From Clostridia bacterium (lineage in GTDB: Bacteria > Bacillota > Clostridia > Oscillospirales > CAG-272): a DNA stretch of 36,231 nt. The translations under genes and the position numbers were made by a program. The DNA is taken from NCBI GenBank assembly GCA_017455185.1, contig JAFTBN010000048.1, positions 1-36,231 of the forward strand. Reading direction: 5' to 3'. Numbering within the stretch: the stretch's first letter is position 1; each line of letters begins with the position of its first letter. Below, piece after piece: positions 17,850 through 36,231 of this stretch. Below the pieces are notes generated by a model. It was not told the origin of the DNA. It saw only the letters and a program-made list of their open reading frames with translations, and did no database searches.

Positions 17850-19549
17850 TTCATTCCAATTCCATTCTGAAACACCGGCGCGTGCTCATCGTCGACGACC
17901 AGGAAATCAACCGGGATGTCCTGGGGATGATTCTGGAAGACGGATATGAAACCCTCTTTGCAACCAACGGTCAGGAAGCGCTGGACTGCATCCGTCAGAA
18001 CGATTACGACATCTCCCTTCTGCTTCTGGATCTGATGATGCCCGTCATGGACGGATTCGAAGTCATGGAAAGGATGAAAAAGGATCCCCTCATGCAGGCT
18101 ATCCCCGTCATTGTCCTGACCTCGGAAAAGTCCGCGGAGTTGAAAGCGCTGCAGCTCGGAGCGGCCGACTTCATCACCAAACCTTTCGATCTGGCCGAGG
18201 TCATTCTGGCCAGGGCCGAGCGCGTCATCGAACTGTGCGAAGGAAAGGAACTGATTTCCTCTGCCGAGCACGATTCCCTGACCGGCCTTTATACCCGGAA
18301 CTTCTTTTACGAATACGTCAACCGGCTTTACCTTTACCACCCCGAGCAAAAAATGGACGCCCTGTCGCTCAATATGGAAAAATTCCATATGATCAACGAA
18401 CTGTACGGACGCGAATTCGGAGACGAGGTGATCCGTGTCATCGGAAAGGCCATTCTGTCCTTCCTTTCGGAAACTCAGGGGATTGCCGGACGGTTTGAAG
18501 CCGACACGTTCGAAATCTGGTGCATGCACCGGGATGACTATGCGCCCCTTTTGGAAACGGTCCTTGCCTCGCTGCGCGATTCCTTCCCGAAGATCAGCCT
18601 GCACGTACGCATCGGCGTCATGCCTTTCGACGGGGCGACCGAGCCGCTTCTGATGTTCGACCGGGCCCGCACGGCCTGCAACCGGGCACGCGGGGATTAC
18701 CAGAATCCGCTTGTCGTTTACGACGAAAAGCTGAAGAAGAAGGAACACCTTCAGCAGCAGCTGATTCATGACTTGCAGGCCGCAGTGGAAGAAAAGCAGT
18801 TCCAGGTGTACTATCAGCCAAAATACAACATCCAATGCGACCCGCCGAAACTCTGCTCGGCAGAAGCGCTCATCCGCTGGAAGCATCCCGAACTCGGCAT
18901 GATTTCCCCGGGCGAATTCATCCCTCTCTTTGAGGAGAACGGTATGATCCACGTGGTGGACAAGTTCGTCTGGAAAGAGGCTGCCGCCCAGCTTTCGCGC
19001 TGGGACGAAACCTACCCGACCCTTCCCCTTTCGGTTTCGGTCAACCTTTCGCGCTCGGAAATGTTCGACTCCACGCTCGTACAGCAGCTGGTCGACCTTG
19101 TGAAGGAAAACCATCTGGACTTCCCGCGCTTCAAACTCGAAGTCACGGAGAGCGCCTACACGGACGACGAAAAGCAATTGCTGGACGTGGTCAGCCGTCT
19201 GCGGAACGCCGGGTTTGAAGTGGAAATGGATGACTTCGGCTCCGGTTATTCATCGCTCAACATGCTGTCCTCCATGCCGATCGACGTGCTCAAGATGGAT
19301 ATGAAATTTGTCCGGAACATTGAGACCAATCCCACCGACCGCAAACTCATCACCCTGATTCTGGACATCGCCCGCTATCTGAAGACGCCGGTGGTCGCCG
19401 AAGGGGTGGAAAACGAGGCGCAGCTGGCCTTTCTCAAGCAAGAAAAGTGCGACCTGGTCCAGGGCTATTATTTCTCCCGTCCGGTGCCGGCCGAGGAGTT
19501 TGAAAAACTGATTCTGAAAGAACTGCAAATAAAGAGGAACGAACCATGA
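17846..19549 (+). CDS. Response regulator: REC, degenerate GGDEF, EAL (c-di-GMP phosphodiesterase)
   Basis: 567 residues. The receiver (about 11-130) has Asp17-Asp18, phospho-site Asp62, Thr92 and Lys112. The GGDEF-like domain (about 140-295) carries FEADTF (217-222) where the GG(D/E)EF motif belongs, so cyclase activity is almost certainly lost. The EAL domain (about 305-560) is intact in the places I can check: EAL (340-342), Asn400, Glu432 in LEVTES, Asp462-Asp463 in DDFGSG, Lys483, Glu519 in AEGVE and Gln539. The inferred role is phosphorylation-controlled hydrolysis of c-di-GMP, a signal for motility, adhesion and biofilm. It is coupled by ATGA overlaps to the genes on both sides, which supports it being the relay output. 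Confidence 0.92.
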   Translation: MIHSNSILKHRRVLIVDDQEINRDVLGMILEDGYETLFATNGQEALDCIRQNDYDISLLLLDLMMPVMDGFEVMERMKKDPLMQAIPVIVLTSEKSAELKALQLGAADFITKPFDLAEVILARAERVIELCEGKELISSAEHDSLTGLYTRNFFYEYVNRLYLYHPEQKMDALSLNMEKFHMINELYGREFGDEVIRVIGKAILSFLSETQGIAGRFEADTFEIWCMHRDDYAPLLETVLASLRDSFPKISLHVRIGVMPFDGATEPLLMFDRARTACNRARGDYQNPLVVYDEKLKKKEHLQQQLIHDLQAAVEEKQFQVYYQPKYNIQCDPPKLCSAEALIRWKHPELGMISPGEFIPLFEENGMIHVVDKFVWKEAAAQLSRWDETYPTLPLSVSVNLSRSEMFDSTLVQQLVDLVKENHLDFPRFKLEVTESAYTDDEKQLLDVVSRLRNAGFEVEMDDFGSGYSSLNMLSSMPIDVLKMDMKFVRNIETNPTDRKLITLILDIARYLKTPVVAEGVENEAQLAFLKQEKCDLVQGYYFSRPVPAEEFEKLILKELQIKRNEP

Positions 19550-34654: not shown

Positions 34655-34729
34655 GTAAATGCAAAAAAAGACGATTTTTGACCGATAAAAGTTTACTTTT
34701 GTTCATACTTTATACAAGATTGAACATAA

Positions 34730-34765
34730 GCAAAAAGAAAAGACCCGTGCTGCAGCACACAGGTC
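34730..34765 (-). terminator. Intrinsic terminator of the decayed gene
   Basis: An 8-bp stem with one G-T pair (34742-34749 with 34758-34765) and 8-base loop, followed on the minus strand by TTTTCTTTTT. It lies just after the reconstructed stop at 34800-34802. Confidence 0.8.
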
Positions 34766-35257
34766 CCTGAACGTCCGGACGTCCGAAGGTTTTCCCGCCT
34801 TATCCAAAACGCATTCCGCCTTTACGACGCCCGTCATGGTCCCGGGTGAATGCATATGGACAGTATAATTCCTCGAACGGAAGCATGAACTGCACGCGCT
34901 GGTGGCGGATGCGTCAGATTCGACGATTATTTCGTGCATAATCACGTGGTCAATCAGGTGATCCGCAATGCGAAGAGCCGGGTTGAATCTCTCGCCTGCC
35001 GGCGCGCTGTTCAGTATCTCAAAGATCTGGTTGATGGCCTGCTTCCTGCTCTTCCCGACGAGCTTAAGCTTGAAGATGTTGCTATCATAATCGTCTTCGT
35101 AATACGAGCGCTCGCCTTCGGTATACTCGATGTTCTCCATAATCCGATTGACGATTTCTTCGGCTTCCTTTTTGGTGTAGCGTTTGAATTCGTAGCCGTC
35201 AGGAAGAGAGTGTCTGTTTTCCTCGGGTGAAGAATATTCAGTTCTTCTTTGGAGGGG

Positions 35258-35285
35258 TTGACTAATCGGGGGATTGTGGTATACT
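35258..35285 (+). promoter_or_regulatory. Sigma-A-like promoter reading into the AT-rich block
   Basis: TTGACT (35258-35263) and TATACT (35280-35285) with a 16-base spacer on the plus strand. It would give a leader of about 140 bases before the lipoprotein gene at 35432. It lies inside the decayed minus-strand gene. Confidence 0.55.
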
Positions 35286-35292
35286 TACTACG

Positions 35293-35388
35293 AAAGAGCC
35301 GTTAGGCAGCTCCACTACTTTTGTTGCGTCTGCCGGTTGTAGGCTCTTTTCTGCTTTTAGAAGCTCAAATTCTTCTCCGCTCGGAGCC
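35293..35388 (+). ncRNA. Possible structured leader with alternative hairpins
   Basis: AAAGAGCC (35293-35300) can pair with GGCTCTTT (35342-35349), enclosing GGCAG/CTGCC (35305-35309 with 35330-35334) and followed by a T-rich stretch, terminator-like. GGCTC (35342-35346) can instead pair with GAGCC at 35384-35388. A further CTCCG/CGGAG hairpin lies at 35375-35386. This resembles an attenuator, but the opposite strand was once coding, so the pairing may be chance. Confidence 0.3.
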
Positions 35389-35431
35389 AACACTTTTACA
35401 TATGATTTAGCAACATTAAGGAGGTGTAATA

Positions 35432-35932
35432 ATGAAAAAACATATGATGATATTCATTACAATCTTTCTCGTGTTTTCTTTATCTTCGTGTTCAAATGAA
35501 AAAACAATTAGATTAACCTCGAACTCACAAAAAGAGAGTCCTTCTACGGTATTATCTATTGAAGCACCGGAGCAATCATCGAAAAAAGATTTGGTTGTAA
35601 TTAAAGTAGGGGTAGGGAAAAGAATCCATTCACAATATAATCTCTATAACCATACAATTCTTAGCATTGATGCTCCTGGTGTTATAGTTGATAGTTCTAA
35701 CGATTTATATTCTAAGACGTTTGATTTAACACAGGAGGAATACTTGTGTGATAAGGATAATAACCCACAATATTTTGTTGATATTCCACTTAATTTTGGT
35801 AATTGTACACAGCTTTCTGGTACAATTACGATAAAACTGATTTCTTATTTTTCGAGTGGAGAAACTAATGGTGCTTCACTATATATTAATTATATGGTAG
35901 AGAACGGTAAGATTATTTTTTCCGCAAGATGA
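35432..35932 (+). CDS. Putative secreted lipoprotein of unknown function
   Basis: 166 residues. A lipoprotein signal with Lys-Lys-His, a hydrophobic core and lipobox LSSC (Cys20) is followed by a Ser/Gln/Lys-rich linker to about 50 and then a beta-strand-rich domain without recognised motifs. AAGGAGG lies 8 bases before the ATG. Codons are strongly AT-rich, unlike every gene between 243 and 34573, which suggests horizontal acquisition. It is followed after 23 bases by a small secreted-protein gene, probably in the same transcript. No function is assigned. Confidence 0.75.
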   Translation: MKKHMMIFITIFLVFSLSSCSNEKTIRLTSNSQKESPSTVLSIEAPEQSSKKDLVVIKVGVGKRIHSQYNLYNHTILSIDAPGVIVDSSNDLYSKTFDLTQEEYLCDKDNNPQYFVDIPLNFGNCTQLSGTITIKLISYFSSGETNGASLYINYMVENGKIIFSAR

Positions 35933-35955
35933 TTTTTTTAAACAGAAGGTACGTT

Positions 35956-36102
35956 ATGAAAAGGATTATTGTTGTACTTTTGGTATTTGTTATGATGTGT
36001 AGCACTGGTGGTTATGCCTATGCATCCGAGTCATACAAAGCTGATGAATCTTTACTCGTTGCAGATAATTTTGATAAAGGTGAATTTAAACACAATCATT
36101 GA
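35956..36102 (+). CDS. 48-residue secreted microprotein
   Basis: The frame encodes 48 residues: KR, a hydrophobic run (about 4-14), and an AYA signal-peptidase site near residue 23, leaving a mature peptide of about 25 residues starting SESYKADES and ending in KHNH. AGAAGG lies 6 bases before the ATG. It shares the AT-rich composition of the lipoprotein upstream. It could be a secreted signalling peptide, an immunity-type peptide or the N-terminal stub of a truncated gene. Its stop overlaps the end of the convergent partial gene. Confidence 0.55.
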   Translation: MKRIIVVLLVFVMMCSTGGYAYASESYKADESLLVADNFDKGEFKHNH

Positions 36103-36231
36103 GCTTTCTGTACATATGAGCTTTTCAAAGGGAGCGTCAGCTCCGGCTTAAAGCCCATCTGTTCAAATATAAGCATATCCTTCGTCCTTTTATTTTGAAT
36201 CTGCCAACAATCATCAGTACACACCATTCTG
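36096..36231 (-). CDS. C-terminus of an unrecognised protein (partial at window edge)
   Basis: A minus-strand frame enters from the right edge and runs 44 residues to a TGA at 36096-36098. Readable segments include MVCTDDCWQIQNKR and IFEQMGFKPELTLPLK. It looks like coding sequence with more neutral composition than the lipoprotein block. It is too short to assign; a transposase or enzyme C-terminus are both possible. Its end overlaps the microprotein stop on the other strand by a few bases. Confidence 0.45.
   Translation of the reverse strand, partial: RMVCTDDCWQIQNKRTKDMLIFEQMGFKPELTLPLKSSYVQKAQ

Follow-up and report, generated by a model that had tools for sequence, protein, structure and literature searches.

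The right end of the window, which is the entire contig C19 (36,231 bases) of a 2.1-Mb draft genome in 83 contigs, very probably carries a gene truncated by a mobile element within a small, foreign-looking AT-rich block. On this explanation, what had been described as a gene for a 48-residue secreted peptide would be the front of a gene cut by the element and not a natural gene. According to the course of events proposed here, an AT-rich block of foreign composition beside a prophage remnant would have carried an orphan lipoprotein gene, followed 23 bases further on by a gene for a secreted protein. This second frame would then have been hit, between codons 45 and 46, by an insertion-sequence-like element that has a terminal inverted repeat of 29 bp. 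The tip of the element would have supplied three codons and an in-frame stop, so that translation would end in His-Asn-His and mimic a secreted peptide of 48 residues. As several near-identical copies of the element would be present, the assembly would have broken off 141 bases inside it. Observed directly were the break in composition, the repeat, the 29-bp end shared between copies and the place in the frame where the boundary falls.

The block with the lipoprotein gene and the small frame is located at the right contig end, where the sequence stops at an assembly break. Its G+C content is 0.315 (31.5%) over positions 35400-36087, as compared to about 0.5-0.6 to the left of it and a contig mean of 0.553; the lowest value for any other 688-base window of contig C19 left of the block, taken in steps of 50 bases, is 0.436. 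The GC3 values of the lipoprotein frame and the small frame are 0.25 and 0.24, against 0.76, 0.73, and 0.70 for three genes to the left. Both measures bear out the break in composition near position 35400 that had been pointed out in the preliminary description. The block (35400-36090, presumed to be acquired) is cut on its right side by the element. Its acquisition from elsewhere, as also proposed earlier, is suggested by the combination of G+C and GC3 values that are out of line with the contig, a lipoprotein for which no relative was found in 58 other related genomes, and the adjoining prophage remnant; these observations support the description as an AT-rich, acquired-looking block that contains an orphan lipoprotein gene. 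Judging from their translations, the genes to the left of the block are of the aroB, tyrA, and DAHP-synthase types. A genome of the same genus (G001) has a different gene after the DAHP-synthase gene (a carboxypeptidase, by reading of the sequence), which is in line with an insertion or rearrangement in either of the two genomes.

On its left side the block borders on positions 34686-35285 (minus strand), the "decayed gene" of the preliminary description. Using blastn, this stretch was found to be a prophage remnant, in which part of a giant phage-type frame on contig C49 of the same genome (G000) is present as a decayed copy with internal deletions. Positions 34905-35285 match C49 at 86%, positions 34867-34903 at 100%, and positions 34791-34866 at 78%, and these three pieces, adjacent in the window, are separated in C49 by about 0.9 and 1.2 kb. 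The remnant also matches contigs C65 (87%) and C63 (81%). The giant frame in C49, of at least 3,500 amino acids, matches phrog_22978 (E 4.3e-64) and shows a match to LPD3 (E 2.7e-4) that is below the Pfam cut-off; a gene in its vicinity matches a phage major head family (E 8.9e-9). As the left-hand remnant is phage-related, the AT-rich block sits against prophage debris. The minus-strand frame at 35262-35420 had no match beyond itself and chance among the stretches compared.

Decayed and deleted pieces of a single giant phage-type gene are thus scattered in this genome, at 34686-35285 of the window and on C49, C65, and C63 (L043, L044, L045). The region around the giant frame (L043, G000:C49:32000-50000) is a prophage that includes a Mu gpT-like head gene. 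The window matches C65 from base 34904 and C49 from the neighbouring base 34905, and the two short copies may share a deletion point.

The first gene of the block (35432-35932, plus strand) specifies a lipoprotein of 166 amino acids. The sequence AAGGAGG (35418-35424, plus strand) is present 7 nt ahead of its ATG. A type II signal peptide (MKKHMM...VFSLSSC, read by eye) is present, with the lipobox L-S-S-C formed by residues 17-20 and the cysteine at position 20. By its signal, lipobox, and ribosome-binding site it is to be regarded as a real gene, and the earlier statement that it carries an export signal and a good ribosome site holds.

No trusted relative of the lipoprotein was obtained from any of the collections searched. 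Among 393 other genomes of the order, 55 gave matches with E values up to 0.05; the best 19 loci concerned other kinds of protein that matched through signal-peptide or chance stretches, histidine kinases being an example. One of these loci, L014, is a lipoprotein-like frame of 160 codons (E 2.2e-5 for one genome), which was no longer matched when the signal peptide was left out. With the mature lipoprotein, the best remaining match among the inspected loci had an E value of 0.003-0.005. The 397 other genomes of the phylum yielded one further match, which was signal-driven as well. Pattern searches gave 18 matches in the contigs of 84,980 species and 13 in viral contigs; none of either set was confirmed. 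The single match in plasmids was to the signal peptide. No relative was found in phages or among PDB sequences, and comparison with Pfam, NCBIfam, and PHROGs resulted in weak matches only, nearly all of them to the signal peptide. The lipoprotein would therefore be classed as an orphan with respect to these collections, the inspected matches being to the signal peptide or due to chance.

A model of residues 50-166, made without an alignment, has a seven-stranded beta structure with a mean pLDDT of 69.9, which is the best of five models, the remaining four being at about 30-35. When this model was compared with solved structures, the best Foldseek E value was 0.041 and the best VIA-align Z score was 7.6, a value within the range called common for that method; the structures matched were mostly immunoglobulin-like. 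It is a tentative guess from this one low-confidence model, and one more doubtful than not, that the protein might be an exported, membrane-anchored beta-sandwich domain of the binding or adhesion type.

Upstream of the lipoprotein gene, a promoter-like site is present at 35258-35285 on the plus strand (TTGACT-16-TATACT, the second hexamer being preceded by TG; 10 of 12 positions agree with the consensus). It is considered weak because shuffled sequences gave 4.7 such sites (sd 2.4), as compared to eight counted in the region. Between this site and the gene a hairpin, AAAGAGCC...GGCTCTTT, with an inner GGCAG/CTGCC stem, can be drawn at 35292-35350. Its folding is not clearly better than that of shuffled sequences (z -0.11 for the whole leader and z -1.47 for the hairpin part alone). 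An Rfam search over the window identified one tRNA and no other family, and a relaxed threshold added matches at chance level only.

The second frame starts at 35956 (plus strand), 23 bases past the lipoprotein gene, with the fair ribosome-binding site AGAAGG (35944-35949, plus strand) 6 nt ahead of its ATG. Its first 45 codons (35956-36090) are native and include the signal peptide MKRIIVVLLVFVMMCSTGGYAYA, which, read by eye, is cleavable after AYA (AYA/SES). Codons 46-48, His-Asn-His, and the TGA stop occupy 36091-36102, where a repeated element begins. Only some 22 native residues are left after signal cleavage, and for that reason the gene was very probably longer before the insertion. With 44 of the 45 native codons as query, no match was found in the 58 other related genomes. 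The preliminary description was right in reporting two starts with export signals and ribosome sites; its second gene is not one of 48 residues, as the end lies in the repeat. The possibility that it had itself raised, namely that the small frame could be the N-terminal part of a longer gene broken by mutation, is in substance what was found, with an insertion as the cause of the break; the remainder of that gene is not in contig C19 and was not found.

The preliminary description had also put forward that the lipoprotein and the tiny peptide could form an immunity/effector or signalling pair. In that case the frame would encode a true small secreted peptide with the lipoprotein as its partner, and the repeat would do no more than provide its natural end. 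The signal peptide, the fair ribosome site, and the spacing of 23 bases would suit such a partnership, which is nevertheless extremely improbable: the last three codons and the stop are inside a repeat that occurs at four unrelated sites, the mature product would have only about 22 native residues, and no family match was found. Beyond signal-peptide similarity, Pfam, NCBIfam, PHROGs, and PADLOC contained no effector/immunity family match. An effector/immunity or toxin-antitoxin pair would have two intact adjacent genes; here, the second is cut after 45 codons.

The evidence for a truncating element comes from a comparison of contig ends within the assembly. When the block was used to search its own genome, the only matches besides itself were contig ends: C62:1-145, C41:1-144, and C64:18737-18770. 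Likewise, the last 145 bases of the window match their own place and the ends of these three contigs only. All four junctions switch from unrelated sequence to CACAATCATTGAG at one exact base, which is position 36091 in the window; the boundary is at CACAATC in each. The distance from this boundary to the contig end is 141 bases in C19, C62, and C64 and 140 bases in C41. Such equal distances are expected of a de Bruijn assembler where unique paths run into a repeat that has been collapsed, and a word length of 141 is a usual last step of one such assembler. C19 and C62 are identical over 141 of 141 bases and C19 and C41 over 139 of 140, with one mismatch. C64 is identical to C19 for exactly the first 29 bases and unrelated thereafter. 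The 1.5-kb flanks of the four junctions have no mutual similarity by blastn, which means that the repeat sits in unrelated sites; several copies are thus present at unrelated places of one genome. Each copy is represented by one flank, and the junctions are as given by the assembly.

Three of the junctions (C19, C62, and C41) display one end of the element, and C64 displays the other. That the two end types share only 29 bases, read inward, is the picture given by a single element flanked by terminal inverted repeats, to which both would then belong. The terminal inverted repeat, CACAATCATTGAGCTTTCTGTACATATGA, occupies 36091-36119 in the window; it is exact in C19 (and C62) and C64, and the sequences further inward differ between the two end types. 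The earlier remark that no terminal repeats are visible applies to the window on its own; its last 141 bases (36091-36231) are, by comparison with C62, C41, and C64, one end of a multicopy, insertion-sequence-like element. The flank bases beside the element are TTTAAA, ACTAAG, AATAGA, and ATTAAT, with TA at -4/-3 in all four; in the 6 bases next to the boundary, any dinucleotide common to the flanks was obtained in 0.5% of shuffles. A TA at a fixed place in the flank is as expected of a target preference, and its placement would suit a target duplication, four or six bases long, with TA at its centre.

In the element, a minus-strand frame enters from the contig end and stays open until a stop at 36098-36096, a few bases short of the element tip. 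Its C-terminal 44 codons (36096-36230) are the same in C19, C62, and C41, apart from one residue in C41, and probably represent the C-terminus of a transposase. Comparison of the 44-residue tail with Pfam, NCBIfam, and PHROGs gave no family match; a relative was not found among 393 other genomes of the order, and plasmids and phages yielded nothing beyond chance. The end sequence of the element was not found in 195 other genomes of the family or in viral contigs. A scan of genome contigs, weak in that it used two 7-residue patterns only, gave no relative either. Seven short matches from one search with the element, covering 23-26% of the query, were taken as chance. The assembly did not yield the interior of the element and hence no transposase, and the element, with ends of 29 bp, would for now be unclassified as to family. 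An invertible segment or one moved by site-specific recombination would also have inverted 29-bp ends and several copies, and would be in keeping with the lack of a visible transposase. This alternative is very unlikely, as the same inner 140-141 bases are found in the same register at three loci with unrelated flanks, that is, as dispersed copies of one element. The repeat is accordingly best read as a transposable element.

The contig that displays the other end of the element, C64, is another AT-rich contig end (L046:18160-18882). Its positions 18160-18737 have a G+C content of 0.33 and contain an orphan frame of 120 codons with a GC3 of 0.28, for which the family libraries, including PADLOC, gave no match and the model had a pLDDT of 50.7. 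As an addition to the main explanation, C19 and C64 could be the two sides of one insertion, with the end of C64 as the rest of the acquired block. Opposite element ends, similarly low G+C, and the sequence TTAA adjoining both junctions, offset by one base, agree with such a joining. The last six flank bases differ (TTTAAA in C19, ATTAAT in C64), which is unexpected if a 6-bp duplication took place and the element starts at CACAATC, and in two genomes of the same genus the genes next to the flanking ones give no link, so that the joining is possible but rather unlikely. A contig of the same genus considered as a synteny link was rejected: the shared gene, by reading, encodes an ATPase of another kind, and the neighbours are unlinked. 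It is a distinctly improbable, further-reaching reading that the lipoprotein gene and an intact second gene, perhaps together with the 120-codon frame of C64, would have made up a small operon for an undescribed exported system, coming from a donor of low G+C and inactivated in this strain by the element.

The truncated gene carries a warning for the annotation of draft genomes: when a mobile element has been collapsed in the assembly, its terminal inverted repeat can, if it contains an in-frame stop, fake a "secreted peptide" at a contig end. Such an artefact can be tested for by comparing contig ends inside the same assembly. The orphan lipoprotein and the unclassified element with 29-bp ends are modest additions, and the site is otherwise mostly ordinary.

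Three known classes invite comparison. Giant 'polyvalent' phage proteins, as treated by Iyer et al. (2017; PMC5512222), would be resembled by the C49 frame in its size of at least 3,500 amino acids, its weak LPD3 and strong phrog_22978 matches, and the phage head gene nearby; unlike in such proteins, the LPD3 match is below the Pfam cut-off and the window has a broken copy with deletions. With orphan bacterial lipoproteins in general, the product of 35432-35932 shares the signal, the lipobox, a Ser/Lys-rich linker, and a predicted beta-sandwich, while it differs in that no sequence relative is available and its fold matches only the common immunoglobulin-like arrangement, with Z scores of at most 7.6. 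The element differs from insertion sequences with a DDE transposase in that neither a transposase nor a target duplication is seen and its end sequence was not found in the 195 other genomes of the family or in the viral contigs. It is like the members of that class in its near-identical copies at unrelated sites, its perfect, short terminal inverted repeat, a frame that stops a few bases short of one end, and a TA at a constant position in the target.
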